64,000 nt of DNA from contig NZ_CP029480.1 of NCBI RefSeq assembly GCF_003258705.1, positions 496,001 to 560,000 on the forward strand. Direction: 5' to 3'. Below are positions 1-44,080 of the stretch, piece after piece. The notes beneath the pieces were generated by a model. It was not told where the DNA came from, did not search any database, and saw nothing but the letters and a program-made list of their open reading frames with translations. This stretch comes from Arcticibacterium luteifluviistationis. Its GTDB lineage: Bacteria > Bacteroidota > Bacteroidia > Cytophagales > Spirosomataceae. Position numbers and translations under genes: made by a program. Every line of letters starts with the position of its first letter. Position 1 is the first letter of the stretch.

Positions 1-1
1 T

Positions 2-187
2 AACCCTGCTCCTGATGCCGATGTGTATTCTGTAGGACAAGAGAACTTTGAATGGGTGGTAGAAAAATCCGCGAGAATGGCCATTGCCAAAGCAAAAAGT
101 AATAAACCAGGCGTCAATAACTGTACATGGGGTACTTTCATGCAATCTTCTATCACGAAGTCAGATATTTTGAAGCTTCGACAATAA
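2..187 (+). CDS. Unidentified protein, C-terminal end (partial)
   Basis: An open frame enters from the left edge and runs 61 codons to a TAA at 185-187. The translated tail contains NPAPDADVYSVGQENFEWVV, then an Ala/Lys-rich helix and the ending ITKSDILKLRQ. The frame is long for such AT-rich DNA and has a normal amino-acid mix, so it is probably a real gene end. I do not recognise the family from this tail. The start lies outside the window. It is followed by about 670 bases without a convincing gene. Confidence 0.6.
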   Translation, partial: NPAPDADVYSVGQENFEWVVEKSARMAIAKAKSNKPGVNNCTWGTFMQSSITKSDILKLRQ

Positions 188-289
188 GCAATGCTTCATT
201 TTCTAATGATACAATGATTCAATTTTCAATGCAAGTTCGACCAAAGACTGGTCTGATAAATTAGAAAGAAAAAAAGTATTCCATATAAA

Positions 290-455
290 GCCCTGTACTG
301 TCCGAGCACGGTCAAAATTGAAACAGAATATTTAAATTATAGCTCGTCAATATTAAGAATTTTGAGTGTGTGAGTTTACAGGGTGATGTTTTTTTGGTTC
401 GTTTTTTACGCTAAAAAATGAACTCCCCGCCGGAAGGCGAGCGAAGAAAAGGTTT
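290..455. repeat. Two-hairpin dispersed element, copy 1
   Basis: The first part (291-383) is bounded by CCCTGTA and TACAGGG. The inverted similarity continues inward through GCAC..TCAAAATT for about 27 bases per arm. The second part contains a near-perfect palindrome at 397-423 (GTTC, A/T-rich arms, centre CGC, GAAC). The same arrangement with the same spacing recurs at 43896-44080, where the hairpin arms and edges are conserved and the middle has diverged. It lies upstream of the YbdK operon. It could be a MITE-like or REP/BIME-like element; no transposase is nearby. Confidence 0.75.
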
Positions 456-854
456 TTAGCGTCGCTGTTATATCTAAGGCTTACTGAAAAACAATTAAGT
501 AATTTAAAACAAATGGCTTACACATTAATAATCGATTTTAGGTCCATGGGTTTAGAAGCAAAAACTGAAAATATCGTACATTACTACAAATCGTTTCTTC
601 TTGTCTTGGCAGACTGCCCTTCATTTTTGTTTGGGCAAAAACAAAGCAAAAACCAGAACCAAAATAAACTTGCACAGCAACAAATCATTAAACAATCGAA
701 GTATTATGAAGAATGATTTCTTGCCATGCTTCAAACAATATTTTGGCAATTCGGAATTCTCGTTTTATTTTATTTATTCCGAACACCCTATTTAATTCTT
801 TATCAAACTGTTTAAAAGCAGTAAAATATTGTTCTAAAAACTGTCAAAAAAACA
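456..854. other. Intergenic stretch without a convincing gene
   Basis: Short open frames at 513-716, 601-795 and 713-901 overlap one another in different frames, have low-complexity Lys/Gln/Asn-rich translations and show no domain. I see no RNA gene. The stretch presumably holds the promoter of the operon that begins at 855. Confidence 0.5.
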
Positions 855-1952
855 ATGTCATTATTTACCCTAGGCATAGAAGAAGAATTTCAAATCATTG
901 ACCCAGAAAGCCGTGAGCTTAAATCCCACATGTCGCAGATTGTGGACAGAGGTCAAGTGATTCTTCAGGAACGTATTAAGCAGGAAATGCACCAGGCTGT
1001 GGTGGAAACAGGAACCAACATCTGTCAGAATATTTCTGAAGCTAGAGAAGAAGTCCAGTTTTTAAGAAACAACGTTATCAGCCTAGCCGATGAAAAGAAC
1101 CTGAAAGTAGCCGCTGCCGGCACACATCCTTTCTCTGACTGGGTAGACCAACTAATTACGGTAGACGAACGTTATGACGAAATCATTAATGAAATGCGTG
1201 ACGTGGCTCGTGGTAACCTCATTTTCGGACTCCATGTACATGTCGGAATAGAAGACCGTCAGGAAGCCATAAAAATCATGAATGAGGTGCGATATTTCCT
1301 TCCGCATATTCACGCTTTGAGTACTAATTCACCTTTTTGGTGCGGCAGAGATACAGGTTTTATGTCGTACCGCTCTAAGGTTTTTGACAAGTTTCCTCGT
1401 ACAGGAATTCCTGATTATTTCAGTTCCGCAGCCGAATACGACGATTATGTGAATCTTTTGGTGAAAACCAACTGCATTGATAATGGTAAAAAGATTTGGT
1501 GGGACATCAGAGTGCACCCCTTCTATCCTACCATAGAATACCGCATTTGTGATGTACCCATGCGATTAGACGAGACCATTTGTTTGGCGGCTATCATGCA
1601 AGCTCTTATTGCGAAGCTGCACAAAATCAGGCAAGAAAACCTAAGCTTTAGAAGCTACCGCAGAATACTGATAGCAGAGAATAAATGGCGAGCTGCCAGA
1701 GATGGTATCAATGCTAATTTGATTGACTTTGGTAAAGAAAAAGAAGTGCCTTTTAAAGAGTTAATAATAGAGTTGCTGGCATTTATAGATGACGTATTAG
1801 ACGACCTCGGTTCTAGAAAAGAGGTGGAGTACGTTCACAAAATATTAGCCAACGGAACAGGTGCCGACCGACAGCTGGCGGTTTATGAGAAAACAGGTGA
1901 CTTAAAATCTGTGGTAGATTACATAATAGAGGAGACCAAATTCGGTCTTTGA
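855..1952 (+). CDS. YbdK-like carboxylate-amine ligase (GCS2 family)
   Basis: This 365-residue cytoplasmic enzyme belongs to the glutamate-cysteine ligase type 2 fold. The family uses ATP to join a carboxylate, usually the gamma-carboxylate of glutamate, to an amine. Visible hallmarks are the N-terminal LGIEEEF (Glu 9-11, metal/ATP binding), the GLHVHVG segment and the IEYRICDVPMRLDE region. The length is normal for YbdK-type proteins. The ATG at 855 sits directly before the conserved start of the family. It is the first gene of a four-gene operon with an amidotransferase, an ATP-grasp-like protein and an aminotransferase, so its real substrate is probably not cysteine. The family call is firm and the substrate is unknown. 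Confidence 0.88.
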   Translation: MSLFTLGIEEEFQIIDPESRELKSHMSQIVDRGQVILQERIKQEMHQAVVETGTNICQNISEAREEVQFLRNNVISLADEKNLKVAAAGTHPFSDWVDQLITVDERYDEIINEMRDVARGNLIFGLHVHVGIEDRQEAIKIMNEVRYFLPHIHALSTNSPFWCGRDTGFMSYRSKVFDKFPRTGIPDYFSSAAEYDDYVNLLVKTNCIDNGKKIWWDIRVHPFYPTIEYRICDVPMRLDETICLAAIMQALIAKLHKIRQENLSFRSYRRILIAENKWRAARDGINANLIDFGKEKEVPFKELIIELLAFIDDVLDDLGSRKEVEYVHKILANGTGADRQLAVYEKTGDLKSVVDYIIEETKFGL

Positions 1953-2000
1953 TACAAAATTCGCGACCTTTGCTTTTTATTAGAATTAAGCCAAAATTCA

Positions 2001-2828
2001 ATGTTTGCAGAAGTAAAAATAGCCATTCTAGACCTTTATGACGGCTACCCTAATGAGGGCATGCGGTGCATAAAAATGCTCATAGGAGAGTTTTTGGAAC
2101 AAGATACTGTCAAAGGAAACTTTGACGTTTTTGATGTCAGAGGTGATGGAGCATTGCCTAAAATTGAGGATTACGATATTTTCATTTCTACAGGTGGTCC
2201 TGGCAGTCCAGTAGTACAAGGTTTTCAGTGGGAAAATCGTTTTTTCAACTTCTTAGACGACCTACTGGAGCATAATAAATATCAGGAAAACAAAAAGCAT
2301 TTACTGCTTATTTGCCATTCGTTTCAGCTGATGGTACAGCACTTTAAATTTGGTTTAGTGTGTGAGCGTAAGTCTACCTCTTTTGGGGTGATGTCTGTTC
2401 ATCAAACAGAAGATGCTAAAGACGAAATCCTGTTTGAAGGTTTAGAAAACCCATTTTGGGCGGTAGACTCTAGAGATTATCAGGTGATTCAGCCTGACGA
2501 AGAAAAACTCAAAGAGCATCATGCTCATATTTTAGCTTTAGAGAAAATCAGGCCACACATTCCGCTAGAAAGAGCCATCATGGGCATAAGACTTACAGAC
2601 GAGGTGGTGGGCTTTCAGTTTCATCCTGAGGCTGATGCCGAAGGCATGCAACGCTATTTTTTACAGGCCGACAAGAAAATGGCAGTGGTAAACGAGCATG
2701 GCGAAGACAAATACGAGGACATGATTTTACAGCTAAACGACCCCGACAAAATACAGTTGACGGAGTCTATCATCATTCCTAAATTCCTGAACAATTCTCT
2801 TAAAAACATAAGTATACCCACAGAATAA
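2001..2828 (+). CDS. Stand-alone class I glutamine amidotransferase-like protein
   Basis: This 275-residue GATase1-fold protein has the complete triad: a nucleophile elbow LLICHSFQ with Cys near 105, and GFQFHPEAD with His near 208 and Glu near 210. The oxyanion-type loop STGGPGSP lies at about 63-70. Stand-alone GATase1 proteins either hydrolyse gamma-glutamyl bonds (PuuD is one example) or supply ammonia to a partner synthase. Here the partners would be the ligase 48 bases upstream and the ATP-grasp-like gene, whose ATG overlaps this TAA by one base. That overlap implies translational coupling. About 60 residues follow the catalytic HPE, longer than in a minimal GATase. Hydrolase or amidotransferase role is inferred. 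Confidence 0.85.
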   Translation: MFAEVKIAILDLYDGYPNEGMRCIKMLIGEFLEQDTVKGNFDVFDVRGDGALPKIEDYDIFISTGGPGSPVVQGFQWENRFFNFLDDLLEHNKYQENKKHLLLICHSFQLMVQHFKFGLVCERKSTSFGVMSVHQTEDAKDEILFEGLENPFWAVDSRDYQVIQPDEEKLKEHHAHILALEKIRPHIPLERAIMGIRLTDEVVGFQFHPEADAEGMQRYFLQADKKMAVVNEHGEDKYEDMILQLNDPDKIQLTESIIIPKFLNNSLKNISIPTE

Positions 2829-4024
2829 TGCACAAAGCGGCACGCGAAAAGTTTAACGAGTCTTTTAGTACAGAAAAGTACCAAAACCTGGTAGCAGAGA
2901 TAAATCAAGAATTTCCTGGCAAACTAGATTTCAGAATAGCAGAGAGTCCTATTTTTATTGATAGAGCACTTAAAACTAAGTTTTTGATGGCTGCTAATGA
3001 TGTCATAAGCGGCATTAAAAAGAAGGATTTTAAAGAGAAAACCGAGGCGGCTATTCCGGCAGAATATCGTTTTAAAAACGAATCAGAAAATCCGCATTTC
3101 TTATGCCTTGATTTTGCGATAGCTAAAGACCAAGACGGAAACTTAGAACCACAGCTGATAGAGCTACAAGGCTTTGCATCGCTGTTTGCTTATCAAAACT
3201 ATTTGGCGGGTAAATACAAGAAATTTTTTGATGTATCGGCAGCACATTCGCCTTACTTTAATAAGCTGAATGCCTTTACCTACATGAATAAGATGGAGAA
3301 GGTGCTAAAGCCTAAGTCCTCTAAAAATACCATTTTACTAGAAGTATACCCTGATAAGCAAAAGACACGCCTAGACTTTGAAATTACTAAAACCTATTGG
3401 GGCATAGAGACTGTTTGCCTGAGCAAAGTATTTGTAAAAGCTGGCTTGCTTTATTATAAAAATGGGGACGACGAAATACAGATTGACCGTGTGTATAATC
3501 GTGTTATTTTTGACGAAATTGAGAAACTTTATCCTGAGCTAAAAATCAATATTGATATCTTAAAAGATGCAAATGTTGAATGGATTACGCATCCTCACTG
3601 GTTTTATAGGGTAAGCAAGTTTTGTATGCCATTGCTCAAAAGCAAGTACATACCAGAGAGCAAATATTTGGACAAATTAGACGCCTACCCAGAAGACCTA
3701 GAAAACTATGTACTGAAACCATTGTTTTCTTTTGCGGGGTCTGGTGTAAACCTACACCCAACAGCGGCAGACTTAGACAAAATAGAAGATAAACAGAACT
3801 ACATACTTCAAAGAAAAGTACAATACGAACCTGTGATAAAGAAGCCAGACGGCACCTTGATAAAAACCGAAGTTCGCCTATTGTTTACTTGGCCTGAAGG
3901 TAAAAACCATCCTGAATTATTGACCAATTTGGCTCGTCTGAGTCAGGGTGAAATGATTGGCGTGGCTTATAATAAAGATTTTGACTGGGTGGGTGGTAGC
4001 TCAGCTTTTTTTGAAACAGACTAA
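2828..4024 (+). CDS. ATP-grasp-like ligase, uncharacterised
   Basis: This 398-residue protein overlaps the preceding stop by one base (TAATG). The C-terminal third looks like an ATP-grasp nucleotide site: YVLKPLFSFAGSGV near 294-307 (Lys plus a glycine-rich loop), then a QRKVQYEP strand, EVRLLF and a final NLARLSQGEMIG. The N-terminal half contains PQLIELQGFASLF, possibly a substrate segment. Such enzymes form peptide-like amide bonds through an acyl phosphate. With the YbdK-like ligase upstream this would give two successive ligations. I assign the fold by motif only, and no substrate can be read from the sequence. Confidence 0.65.
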   Translation: MHKAAREKFNESFSTEKYQNLVAEINQEFPGKLDFRIAESPIFIDRALKTKFLMAANDVISGIKKKDFKEKTEAAIPAEYRFKNESENPHFLCLDFAIAKDQDGNLEPQLIELQGFASLFAYQNYLAGKYKKFFDVSAAHSPYFNKLNAFTYMNKMEKVLKPKSSKNTILLEVYPDKQKTRLDFEITKTYWGIETVCLSKVFVKAGLLYYKNGDDEIQIDRVYNRVIFDEIEKLYPELKINIDILKDANVEWITHPHWFYRVSKFCMPLLKSKYIPESKYLDKLDAYPEDLENYVLKPLFSFAGSGVNLHPTAADLDKIEDKQNYILQRKVQYEPVIKKPDGTLIKTEVRLLFTWPEGKNHPELLTNLARLSQGEMIGVAYNKDFDWVGGSSAFFETD

Positions 4025-4030
4025 AATACG

Positions 4031-5227
4031 ATGCACTTAAGACAACTCTTCTTAGAAAACATGGCTCAAACGAGCGATTTCCCGCTGGCACTGGAATTTA
4101 CCAAAGCCGAGGGGGTTTATTTGATAGATAAGTCTGGCAAAAAGTACATTGACCTCATAGCAGGAATAGCCGTTAGTAATGTAGGCCACAGGCACCCAAA
4201 AGTGGTGCAGGCCATTAAAGACCAAGCAGACCAATACCTGCACCAGATGGTGTATGGCGAATATGTGCAAAGCCCGCAAGTGATGCTGGCCAAAGCACTG
4301 GCAGATACCCTAGCGGCCTATAAAACTAACAGCGGACTGAGCATAAACAATGCTTATTTTACCAACTCGGGTACGGAGGCCGTAGAAGGTGCCATGAAAC
4401 TGGCCAAAAGATATACAGGTAGAACAGAAATTATAGCTTTTCATAATGCTTACCACGGCAGCACGCAGGGAGCACTCTCTTTAGGAGACGAGGAATTTAA
4501 AAGAAATTTTAGACCTACCCTACCCGATATACGCAAAATAGCCCGTGAGAACTTTGAGGATTTAAACCTCATTACCGAAAGAACTGCCGCCGTATTTTAC
4601 GAACCTGTGGGTGGCGAAAGTGGTGTTAGACCTGCCTCCCAAGCTTATATTACCGCTCTGGGCAAACGCTGTAAAGAAACAGGCACTTTGCTAGTTTTCG
4701 ATGAAATACAGAATGGATTTGGGCGTACGGGTTCTTTTTGGGCTTTTGAACAATACGGCGTAGTACCCGATATTTTACTGGCTGCCAAAGGCATGGGTGG
4801 CGGAATGCCGATAGGTGCTTTTATGGCTCCTAGAGAAATTATGAGTGTGCTAACCGATAATCCTATTTTAGGGCATATTACCACTTTTGGTGGGCATCCG
4901 GTGAGCTGTGCGGCTTCACTGGCCACGGTGAGTATAATTCATGATGAAATAGACCACAGCGAAACCCTACGCAAAGGCGAGCTTTTTAAAAGCCTGCTGG
5001 TACACCCAAAAATTAAGGAAGTACGTGGCATGGGCCTTATGCTGGCGGTACAACTGTCTGACTTTGAATACATGAAAGCGGTGATAGACCGCACCATAGA
5101 AAATGGCGTAATAACCGACTGGTTTCTCTACTGCGACAACGCCATGCGAATAGCCCCTCCCCTTACCATTACCGACGAACAAATTCATGTGGCTTGTGAA
5201 GTAATTTTGGGGGCTTTGGGGAGTTAG
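4031..5227 (+). CDS. Class III (acetylornithine-type) PLP aminotransferase
   Basis: This 398-residue fold-type I aminotransferase has its Schiff-base Lys near 253 in LLAAKGMGGGMPIGAF, preceded by LVFDEIQNGFGRTG with the Asp that contacts the PLP nitrogen. The phosphate-binding TNSGTEAVEGA is near 111-121. Class III enzymes typically move an amino group at the end of a chain (ornithine, lysine, GABA, putrescine). It begins six bases after the ATP-grasp-like gene and ends the operon. The absence of other arg genes and the presence of a ligase and a GATase1 protein argue against a plain ArgD role. An in-frame alternative ATG lies at residue 11 (MAQTSDFPL). Confidence 0.88.
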   Translation: MHLRQLFLENMAQTSDFPLALEFTKAEGVYLIDKSGKKYIDLIAGIAVSNVGHRHPKVVQAIKDQADQYLHQMVYGEYVQSPQVMLAKALADTLAAYKTNSGLSINNAYFTNSGTEAVEGAMKLAKRYTGRTEIIAFHNAYHGSTQGALSLGDEEFKRNFRPTLPDIRKIARENFEDLNLITERTAAVFYEPVGGESGVRPASQAYITALGKRCKETGTLLVFDEIQNGFGRTGSFWAFEQYGVVPDILLAAKGMGGGMPIGAFMAPREIMSVLTDNPILGHITTFGGHPVSCAASLATVSIIHDEIDHSETLRKGELFKSLLVHPKIKEVRGMGLMLAVQLSDFEYMKAVIDRTIENGVITDWFLYCDNAMRIAPPLTITDEQIHVACEVILGALGS

Positions 5228-5643: not shown

Positions 5644-6480
5644 TTGACAGAGAAAAAGGAGGTGGTTCTTAATTTGTTACATATAATTCAACGCATGAAG
5701 CAACAAAAACTATTATTAAGCATTTCAAATTTACTGAGTAGATTTAAAGTTCAAGTAGGAATTCTGAACGCAAACTCCATGCTTGATATAAATGTAGTTT
5801 CAGAATTTTTCTTGATTCCTTTACTCAACGAAATTTATGATTGTGATTTCACAAATGCCAACTTGATAAAAAAAAACTATCCAGCAGTTGATTTAGTGGA
5901 CAGAAAGAACAAAATAGCAATTCAAATTACGTCGACTTCTAGTGTAACAAAAGTTCGAAAAACTTTAGAAAAAATAATACAGAATAATTTACAGAAGATT
6001 TATAATAACTTTTTTATAATAATTATTACTTCAAAACAGGAAAAATATAATACTTCCATTCTCGACAAAGCAACTCAAGGAAGGTTTCAGTTTACGAATG
6101 ATAATGTTATTGATGTAGAAGGTCTCTTTCAGTTAATAGCTTCTCTAGGTTTAACGAAAATTGAAAAGATTGAAGAATACTTAAAAAGTCAATTCACAGA
6201 CGTCGAAACTACTAATTTCGTCCTAAATACAAATATACCGTCGATTATAAATAAAATTGATAATCCTCAAGATGAATATTTGAAATCAAAATTAAAAACT
6301 GCCTATAATGCAAGACAAGAATGGTATGAGAAAAAAGCTTATTTAGAAACTAACTTACCCAGTATTTCGGATTTAAATCAAAAATTCTCAATTGAGAAAC
6401 AAATTTCAGAATGCAATAAGAAAATTCTAATTTATGAAAAAGATATTGTAACAACGGCAAATCAAATTAACAATGAGTAA
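5644..6480 (+). CDS. SMEK-domain protein with C-terminal adaptor helix
   Basis: Residues about 18-135 match the SMEK domain, a restriction-endonuclease-like fold found in bacterial conflict proteins. Visible marks are SNLLSRF, DINVVSEFFLIPLLNEIYD, the acidic AVDLVD (Asp 83 and 86) and the core strand IAIQITST (Gln 94, Thr 96), followed by TLEKII. A linker leads to a charged helical tail (about 215-275) with the pattern EWYEKKAYLE..SDLNQKFS..KQI. This tail resembles short effector-associated adaptor domains and is repeated at the start of the next protein. The first codon is TTG at 5644, because an in-frame stop at 5626 leaves no upstream ATG; the Met codon at 5695 is the alternative. Nuclease activity is inferred from the fold only. 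Confidence 0.75.
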   Translation: MTEKKEVVLNLLHIIQRMKQQKLLLSISNLLSRFKVQVGILNANSMLDINVVSEFFLIPLLNEIYDCDFTNANLIKKNYPAVDLVDRKNKIAIQITSTSSVTKVRKTLEKIIQNNLQKIYNNFFIIIITSKQEKYNTSILDKATQGRFQFTNDNVIDVEGLFQLIASLGLTKIEKIEEYLKSQFTDVETTNFVLNTNIPSIINKIDNPQDEYLKSKLKTAYNARQEWYEKKAYLETNLPSISDLNQKFSIEKQISECNKKILIYEKDIVTTANQINNE

Positions 6481-10732: not shown

Positions 10733-11908
10733 ATGAAAAGAAGATATATAGCTTTTTTAATAATACTAATTAGTTCTCAATCATACGGACAAAAACCGAG
10801 AGCCAGAGATTTAGGGGTTCCGTTTGTTGGCAAAACTGGAGCGTTTAATGCAATTACGGATGTTAAAGGAGTTGAAGTAGGTTATAGTACTATGATTTCT
10901 GGAGAAGGGGAAAACATTATTGGTAAAGGACCTATAAGAACTGGAGTTACTGCAATATTCCCCAGAGGAAAAGCCAAAAAGTTTAGTCCAGTTTATGCCA
11001 ATTGGTACAGTCTTAATGGAAATGGAGAAATGACAGGCACAACTTGGGTGACAGAATCAGGATTTTTGGAAACACCAATAATGATAACTAATACCAACAG
11101 TGTTGGAGTTGTTCGAGACGCAGTATTGAAGTGGTATGTAGATACAGATTGGTATAGCGGAGAAGATTGGTGGTACACGTATCCGGTAGTGGCTGAAACT
11201 TATGATGGTTTCCTTAATGACATCTATGGGTTTCACGTTAAAGAAGAAAATGTATTAGAAGCCATAAAAAACTCATCGAGTGGAGCCATTGCTGAAGGTA
11301 ATGTTGGTGGCGGAACTGGCATGATGTGCCTAGGCTTTAAAGGCGGAACAGGAACTTCTTCAAGAGTTTTTAAAATAAAGGATTCAACATATACCGTTGG
11401 AGCAATTGTTCAATCCAATTTTGGAGCTAAAAGAAACCTATCCATCGCAGGCGTTCCTGTCGGAATTGAATTAATGGACACTTTAAACTACAAATTTAAT
11501 GCACCACCAAAATCAAGAAGACAGGAAGGAGATGGTTCAATTATCGTAATTATAGCAACAGACGTACCGCTCTTACCGCATCAATTAAAAAGAATTGCTC
11601 AAAGAATTCCACTAGGAGTTGGAATTGTAGGCGGACGAGGAAGCAATGGCTCTGGAGACATTTTTTTAGCCTTCTCAACGGCAAATGAAAATGCATTTAA
11701 TAGAGATGAAACCACTACTGTGAAATCAATGCCGAATGACCAACTAATGCCAGTTTTTGAAGCAACAGTTCAGGCAGTTGAAGAAGCGATTATTAATGCA
11801 ATGATAGCCGCTGAAACTATGGAAGGAATTAACGGAAATAAAGCCTATGCTTTACCACACGATTTGCTTATTGAAACCTTAAAAAAATATAATCGGCTGA
11901 AAGAATAA
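10733..11908 (+). CDS. P1-family (DmpA-type) aminopeptidase, secreted
   Basis: This 391-residue protein begins with a signal peptide ending near SYGQ (residue 20). It then shows the DmpA/S58 N-terminal-nucleophile fold: ITDVKGVEVGYST, GVTAIFPRG, NGNGEMTGTTWV, NVGGGTGMMCLGFKGGTGT and the self-cleavage/nucleophile site DGSIIVIIATD. In the family, cleavage before that Ser makes two chains and exposes the catalytic amine. Members release N-terminal residues, including D-amino acids or beta-alanine, from peptides. The length is typical. The gene stands alone, preceded by mosaic repeat copy 2. Confidence 0.88.
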   Translation: MKRRYIAFLIILISSQSYGQKPRARDLGVPFVGKTGAFNAITDVKGVEVGYSTMISGEGENIIGKGPIRTGVTAIFPRGKAKKFSPVYANWYSLNGNGEMTGTTWVTESGFLETPIMITNTNSVGVVRDAVLKWYVDTDWYSGEDWWYTYPVVAETYDGFLNDIYGFHVKEENVLEAIKNSSSGAIAEGNVGGGTGMMCLGFKGGTGTSSRVFKIKDSTYTVGAIVQSNFGAKRNLSIAGVPVGIELMDTLNYKFNAPPKSRRQEGDGSIIVIIATDVPLLPHQLKRIAQRIPLGVGIVGGRGSNGSGDIFLAFSTANENAFNRDETTTVKSMPNDQLMPVFEATVQAVEEAIINAMIAAETMEGINGNKAYALPHDLLIETLKKYNRLKE

Positions 11909-43515: not shown

Positions 43516-43895
43516 GTAATATGATTAAAGTTAAGAACTGATTTATAAGTTTAATAAATCGTTCCAGGTGAAGTGAGCTACAAAACTAGCGTGGATGTAG
43601 TAGTACCTATTTACAGAATAGGCTCTTAGATTTACAAAATCTCCAAAATATGCCTTTAAAAACATACTGACACCTAAAACACTATTGATTAATAAATAAC
43701 ATCGGATCGATGTTTTAAACCTTATAGGGAAGAAAGAACAGTTTGTCATGATTTCGGCATAAAACGCCAAAATTCCGCCAAACATATTATAGCCTTAATA
43801 AATAGATTTTCTATTAACATTTCGCTCCCAAGGAGCTAAAAGCGTTTCTTTCGAAAGAGATAGAATTGAATTTAAAAAAAAAACATTCCTTAAAA
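43516..43895. other. Intergenic stretch upstream of the oxidase gene
   Basis: An 80-codon open frame on the - strand (43543-43785) has a low-quality translation and no domain, so I do not call it. The stretch should hold the oxidase promoter; no copper-box motif was recognised. Confidence 0.4.
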
Positions 43896-44080
43896 GCCCT
43901 GTACTGTCTGAGCACAAGCAAAATTCACAGAGAAATGTCATTTATCAATTTTACAGTTACAGAATTTTGATTGTGCGAGTTTACAGGGTAATGCTTTTTT
44001 GGTTCGTTTTTTACGCTAAAAAATGAACTCTCCCGCCCAGTCTGCCGACTGGCAGGTGGAAAGCGAGCCAAAGAAAAAGC
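43896..44080. repeat. Two-hairpin dispersed element, copy 2
   Basis: The arms CCCTGTA (43897-43903) and TACAGGG (43982-43988) enclose 92 bases, one fewer than in copy 1, and continue inward as GCACAAGCAAAATT against GCACAATCAAAATT. The second palindrome (44002-44028) is identical to that of copy 1. This copy has an extra small hairpin CCAGTC-TGCC-GACTGG inserted in the right part. It lies upstream of the nucleoside hydrolase gene. Confidence 0.75.

Follow-up and report, generated by a model that had tools for sequence, protein, structure and literature searches.

Three adjacent genes of Arcticibacterium luteifluviistationis, here called g1, g2 and g3, are part of a recurring unit of five genes, c5-c3-g1-g2-g3. 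It comprises a putative esterase, an ATP-grasp protein of predicted RimK fold, a YbdK-type ligase, a class I glutamine amidotransferase-fold enzyme (GATase1) and a second ATP-grasp ligase with the predicted fold of glutathione synthetase and YgiC. The genes were analyzed in a stretch of 64 kb (the window), which covers bases 496001-560000 of the single-contig 5.38 Mb genome, and the unit starts 5' of this window. A preliminary description had taken g1, g2 and g3 together with the aminotransferase gene g4 as a four-gene operon. This grouping did not hold, as the conserved block begins upstream of the window with c5 and c3, and g4 is also common in genomes without the set. We lean towards the reading that g1, g2 and g3 belong to a Bacteroidota set that would build and trim a small peptide-like product independently of nonribosomal peptide synthetases. 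The set is ordinary in its parts and unusual in its combination. Its features, in window positions, are:

1-187, forward strand: 3' end of c3, predicted RimK-fold ATP-grasp ligase; the whole gene (326 amino acids) lies at 495207-496187 of the genome contig (G000:C1) and starts 794 bases 5' of the window
188-854: gap of 667 bases between c3 and g1, containing a dispersed repeat
855-1952, forward strand: g1, YbdK-type carboxylate-amine ligase (GCS2, PRK13515) by Pfam, NCBIfam and YbdK structure profile, 365 amino acids
2001-2828, forward strand: g2, class I glutamine-amidotransferase-fold enzyme with Cys105-His208-Glu210, 275 amino acids, proposed amide hydrolase (in g3 genomes that lack it, an M29 protein adjoins g3)
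2828-4024, forward strand: g3, ATP-grasp ligase with the predicted fold of YjfC/YgiC, glutathionylspermidine synthetase and eukaryotic glutathione synthetase, 398 amino acids
4031-5227, forward strand: g4, class III aminotransferase (PF00202; ArgD/putrescine-aminotransferase-like), 398 amino acids, near-universal in the order and a positional neighbor rather than a member of the set
Start about 1.56 kb 5' of the window, before c3: c5, putative esterase-family protein, 235 amino acids
Outside the window, 5' of c3: c4, divergent esterase

Around g3, the recurring gene order is a divergent c4 followed by c5, c3, g1, g2 and g3. Among the 49 other g3 loci of the order, neighbors of g3 were g2 (27 loci), g1 (25), c3 (22), c5 (18), c4 (17) and g4 (8), and 19 loci held c3, g1, g2 and g3 together. 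A search with c3 returned at least 536 relatives; named ones include Emticicia, Lacihabitans and Dyadobacter. We examined the best 80 named loci of these matches, a choice that is biased towards near relatives and includes some short contigs. Near c3, they contained c5 in 71 cases, g1 in 70, g2 in 66, g3 in 64, c4 in 56 and g4 in 18, with all five core genes present in 59, and g2 was the open reading frame (ORF) immediately 5' of g3 in 62. The c3 gene itself was recovered in 79 of the 80, the ORF caller having missed it in L097. A further ATP-grasp gene, k7, was present in 18 of these loci and an M17 aminopeptidase in 17, chiefly in Flavobacteriia. Searching plasmids with c3 gave no match, and no arginine-biosynthesis gene was recognized beside the set, the flanks having been clustered and annotated in part. 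The five-gene block contains no transporter. Two families recur in the flanks: k22, which we read as SSF symporter-like, a name that Pfam supports for the gene of the window's own genome, in 7 of the 80 named loci, and k10, presumably ammonium-transporter-like, in 12 of them (L083-L101), in the flanks of Spirosomataceae loci.

The ORF call reproduced exactly the four ORFs g1 to g4 and the spacings of 48, -1 and 6 bases given for them earlier. The caller is greedy; genes may be missed or extended. Between c3 and g1, the 667 bases of the window compare with a maximum of 298 among the 69 named loci in which both ORFs are adjacent, and a repeat within this gap (window 269-431) matches window 43876-44037 with 81% identity over 164 columns. 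This long, repeat-bearing gap goes some way to explaining how g1 to g4 came to be taken for the whole unit.

The genes of the set also occur together across 148 genomes of the order (thresholds E ≤ 0.001 for g3, 1e-30 for c3 and g2, 1e-60 for g1 and k7, 1e-80 for g4). We detected g3 in 50 genomes, c3 in 49, g2 in 51, g1 in 40 and c5, counting strong matches, in 46; the c5 count excludes ten genomes (56 at E ≤ 1e-20) in which the sole match is a weaker relative of about 210 bits or less. Shared with g3 were all 49 occurrences of c3, which was found in no genome lacking g3, as well as 48 of g2, 46 of c5 and 40 of g1. Exceptions were G138, which has g3 without c3, and G034, G090, G110 and G138, which have no strong c5. 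The additional ligase k7 was found in 33 genomes, 31 of them with g3 and all 33 with g2, and not in the window's genome. Every g3 genome has g1, k7 or both: the ten g3 genomes without g1 all carry k7, and as all ten fall into one family (f4), they perhaps represent one event. Pairs within 8 kb of each other made up 24 of 49 for c3 and g3 and 28 of 48 for g2 and g3, some of the distances being contig breaks. With c3 close to g3 in only 24 of 49 genomes, linkage does not fully account for the co-occurrence.

The preliminary description had named a YbdK-type ligase, a GATase1 protein, an ATP-grasp-like protein and a class III aminotransferase, and these classes were borne out for all four genes (GCS2, GATase1, ATP-grasp by fold, class III aminotransferase). 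Profile matches assign g1 to the YbdK-type carboxylate-amine ligases: it matches GCS2 (PF04107, 5.9e-64), the NCBIfam model PRK13515 over its full length with 553.4 bits against a curated cut-off of 371, and the YbdK structure 1r8g with an E value of 6.5e-48. For g3, neither Pfam (above cut-off) nor NCBIfam gave a match. Its predicted structure (mean predicted local distance difference test score, pLDDT, 92.1) was compared using VIA-align and gave a Z score of 25.7 with YjfC (root-mean-square deviation, rmsd, 3.6; 346 of 398 residues), a match to YgiC, Z scores of about 24 with glutathionylspermidine synthetase and human glutathione synthetase, and 22.3 with Cp1B (9cjn). Foldseek returned the same families with yeast glutathione synthase on top. 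Judged by this model, g3 can confidently be assigned as an ATP-grasp ligase of the glutathione synthetase/YgiC fold, in agreement with the earlier proposal that the third gene encodes a second ATP-dependent ligase; a fold other than that of a ligase would have spoken against it. Residues invariant in 42 homologues include D95, E112, Q114, K297, K330, E348, R350 and N382, and a by-eye alignment suggests that some of them are catalytic. A search of the window's genome for PF03738 was negative, a relative of g3 in G149 scored 21.1 bits against it (cut-off 29.3), and the profile match of g3 to the circularly permuted ATP-grasp family was weak. Six genomes of the window's own bacterial family (L165-L170) carry a genuine GSP_synth (YgiC-like) gene, preceded in L165, L166, L167, L169 and L170 by a small protein with what we take to be a lipoprotein-like start.

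Structure prediction for a c3 homologue (pLDDT 77.4, low in the tail) aligned with RimK at Z 20.1 and rmsd 3.0 over 259-263 residues. The top rows in Foldseek were D-Ala-D-Ala ligases, and the fold searches also list RimK and LysX/ArgX. On this model, c3 is a RimK-fold ATP-grasp protein. We considered c3 as an R2K protein and rejected this assignment, as the matches were sub-threshold only (R2K_2 15.3 bits, cut-off 26.2); the folds listed, RimK, LysX/ArgX and D-Ala ligases, are compatible with R2K. For c5, Ser117, Asp188 and His218 are invariant in 17 homologues. Ser-Asp-His is the usual alpha/beta-hydrolase triad, and by this sequence criterion c5 is a serine hydrolase of an esterase family. 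Many c3 homologues carry a tail: for 62 of 79 homologues, the tail region could be delimited, and in 49 it had at least 25 residues, and 35 of those tails consist of at least half Lys, Ala and Pro. The homologue at L154:9001-10380 combines a histone H1-like tail with a helix-hairpin-helix match (HHH_5, 27.3 bits, cut-off 27) and a sub-cut-off match to the histone-like HC2 family, which may point to an association with nucleic acid or the ribosome.

These tails, the RimK fold of c3 and the absence of a transporter from the five-gene block would fit a set that modifies a macromolecule, e.g., a ribosomal or nucleoid protein, with c3 adding amino acids in a RimK-like manner, g1 and g3 extending or capping the tag, and g2 or the M29 and M17 peptidases removing it. 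We regard this as unlikely, though it deserves to be kept in mind. Such a tail is missing from the c3 of the window, no gene for a target protein accompanies the set, and the closest folds of g3 act on small peptides or acids. The two transporter families, named by our own reading, moreover recur in lineage-specific flanks.

The assignment of g2 as a GATase1 enzyme with an intact Cys-His-Glu triad was confirmed by a family score above cut-off (PF00117, 5e-09, 36.5 bits, cut-off 22.8) and by Cys105, His208 and Glu210 being invariant in 25 aligned homologues. Only two of the 50 g3 genomes, G027 and G126, lack g2. In G126 (L055), an M29-family protein sits between g1 and g3. In G027 (L072), a protein sharing 69% identity with it precedes g3, the two being separated by a small ORF in opposite orientation, and here g1 and c3 are located elsewhere in the genome. 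The distant locus L186, in genome G205, which was not searched for g2, has a third such protein, again flanked by g1 and g3. In tblastn (1e-10) against 201 loci, some of them overlapping, an M29-type protein was found only in L055 (identical to L026), L072 and L186; the Pfam M29 scores were 50.7 for L055 and 55.8 for L186 (cut-off 27), with L072 outside the scan. These three cases are few, and both genomes of the order belong to one family (f9). The presence of an M29-type peptidase next to g3 in genomes without g2 suggests that g2 probably hydrolyses an amide bond. The removal of a glutamyl group proposed in the preliminary description is therefore plausible as far as amide hydrolysis by g2 is concerned; the transamination by g4 that was to precede it has comparative support in a single family only.

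The same fold and triad, together with the position of g2 directly before g3 in most named loci, could also mean that g2 feeds glutamine-derived ammonia to g1 or g3 and that the set makes a primary amide and not a trimmed peptide. This appears improbable to us, since it is a metallopeptidase and not another source of ammonia that adjoins g3 in the two genomes lacking g2, and g2 occurs without g3 in three others.

The aminotransferase g4 (PF00202, 2.5e-97) follows g3 by 6 bases in the window. In 13 of the 80 named loci g3 is likewise directly succeeded by g4, and within the window's own family, 8 of the 10 genomes with g3 have the two genes no more than 8 kb apart. On such grounds, an amine could be glutamylated, transaminated by g4 and then relieved of its glutamyl group or have it exchanged, as the preliminary description had supposed by reference to the putrescine (Puu) pathway. 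In that pathway, a gamma-glutamyl ligase, the glutamine-synthetase-like PuuA, is paired with a GATase1-fold hydrolase. The set resembles it in joining a ligase with a GATase1-fold enzyme, and differs in that g1 is of the GCS2 type and that no aminotransferase is specific to the set. We consider the proposed pathway very improbable, as comparative support is confined to one family. Orthologues of g4 (E ≤ 1e-80, a single match each) occur in 123 of the 148 genomes, 48 of the 50 with g3 and 75 of the 98 without it; 20 of the 25 genomes without g4 were listed and entered in the association count. An aminotransferase tracking the ligase and the GATase1 gene, as a Puu-like pathway would lead one to expect, was not found across the 148 genomes. 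Only 9 of the 48 genomes having both genes carry g4 within 8 kb of g3, and 8 of these 9 belong to the window's own family. In G086, a genome of the same family without the set, g4 keeps the 3' neighbors that it has in L180, where the set precedes g4, and, two ORFs later, in L040; we take these neighbors to be thioredoxin and dnaE. G029 and G059, which have g3 elsewhere, retain beside g4 the neighbor q4, also found there in L033 and L048. The window's genome has three further class III aminotransferases, presumably an ArgD beside ArgC, an ornithine aminotransferase and HemL. Overall, g4 is best seen as a neighbor of the set and not a member, and its co-transcription with the set in the window is possible.

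A role in cyanophycin metabolism was suggested by Chryseobacterium loci (L127, L152, L157), in which a cyanophycin synthetase, a cyanophycinase and a beta-aspartyl-peptidase homologue adjoin the set, by cyanophycinase-family proteins that six Hymenobacter loci encode 6-9 kb 5' of c3 and by a weak, uncorrected association of the synthetase with g1 (14/40, p = 0.011) and g2 (16/51, p = 0.019), and was dismissed as most improbable, as the synthetase, present in 30 of the 148 genomes, shows no significant association with g3 (14/50, p = 0.13) or c3 (13/49, p = 0.2) and is absent from the window's genome.

Coming back to the peptide-like product that we favor, c3 and g1 (or k7) would each join a carboxylate, probably that of glutamate, to an amine via an acyl phosphate. 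A carboxylate of the resulting product would then be coupled by g3 to another amino acid or amine, and g2 would hydrolyse one of these amide bonds in a trimming or recycling step. An ester or thioester would be cut by c5 and the divergent esterase c4. This scheme has no dedicated transamination and leaves g4 outside the pathway; some lineages add the further ATP-grasp k7 and an M17 aminopeptidase.

Several observations weigh against this scheme. While the enzyme classes are well supported, the product and the order of the steps are what we infer from them. GATase1 enzymes are also able to supply ammonia. By eye, g3 seems to lack the Arg of the canonical motif R-x-D...E-x-N and to have Gln in place of Asn. 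The relation of g3 to GSP_synth rests on the predicted fold, because the comparison with GSP_synth homologues by hhalign was not significant. Within the order, none of c3, g1 and g2 was near g3 in 19 of the 49 other loci, some of which end at contig breaks, and the three genomes of the 148 with g2 and no g3 are G024, G040 and G113. Loci from Runella (L087, L092, L096) and Spirosoma (L125, L141) contain c5 and c3 with no g2-g3 nearby. Among 20 distant loci, which were chosen by a match to c3, nine have c3 without c5, g1, g2 and g3, and two (L185, L189) showed no recognized set gene to the ORF caller, which missed c3 in L185, L189 and L200. Finally, related genomes are not independent, so that Fisher p-values overstate the evidence and are descriptive only.

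Operons of a comparable kind were reportedly predicted in 2009 by Iyer, Abhiman, Burroughs and Aravind, who are said to have described multi-amidoligase operons in which peptidases or GATases accompany several ligases of the ATP-grasp and GCS2 types. The likeness of the set to the glutathione and glutathionylspermidine pathway would be one of enzyme types only. From RimK and LysX/ArgX, whose fold it appears to share (Z about 20), c3 differs by an identity of 13-16% and by the Lys/Ala-rich tail on many of its homologues. YgiC and YjfC of Escherichia coli are peptide-spermidine ligases according to the title of Pederick 2023, as cited in PMC12568646. The predicted fold of g3 matches these proteins and glutathionylspermidine synthetase over most of its length; identity is 13%, however, no profile match is significant, the motif is apparently changed and the gene set is different. 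Cp1B of E-64 biosynthesis is described in PMC12568646 as a stand-alone ATP-grasp enzyme that links a carboxylic acid to an amino acid with no need for a nonribosomal peptide synthetase, with R139, D141, E163 and N165 as nucleotide-site residues. It has the same fold as that predicted for g3, but is fungal and uses other partners, and g3 has D95, E112 and Gln114 at the places aligned by eye. In a literature search including the portions consulted of PMC4431377, PMC2588565, PMC12568646 and PMC2922099, we found no description of the gene set; as the amidoligase survey of 2009 lay outside this comparison, the set may still have been described in print.

Promoter-like sites in the window were at chance level (17, compared with 14.1 in shuffled sequences), and terminator-like sites were above it (14, compared with 4.6). 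Downstream of g4, the ORF at 5644-6480 encodes a SMEK domain (PF21941, 6.3e-41) and is followed by an ORF of 721 amino acids, which we read as a TPR-like repeat protein. At 10733-11908, there is a peptidase family S58 (DmpA-like) protein (PF03576, 8.5e-116) with what we take to be a signal peptide.

Over the phylum as a whole, 134 of the 395 genomes in the sample were found to have c3. The distant loci L186 and L193 contain c3, g1 and g3, and L191 contains c3 and g1. Six of the 20 (L195-L200) carry a circularly permuted ATP-grasp gene, m2, beside g2, with c3 recognized in five; m2 of L195, the one tested, scored 32.5 bits with PF14403 (cut-off 32). No g3 was seen within these six loci, whose genomes were not searched.

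About a third of the sampled Bacteroidota thus carry c3 of an often dispersed pathway, which would combine three or four types of ATP-dependent ligase with a swappable amide hydrolase. We tentatively suggest, as a possibility that may well prove wrong, that it makes a peptide, either a conserved cofactor or a tag, that did not appear in our literature search. Given the histone-like tails on many c3 homologues, a tag might be placed on ribosomal or nucleoid proteins. In place of the initial guess of four genes there are now five to seven that can be put to the test in named cultured genera, among them Dyadobacter and Hymenobacter, and a role for g2 is predicted by the peptidase that adjoins g3 in genomes without g2. 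The set is common in Bacteroidota, and its genes occur together even when dispersed over the genome, which speaks for a single conserved pathway.

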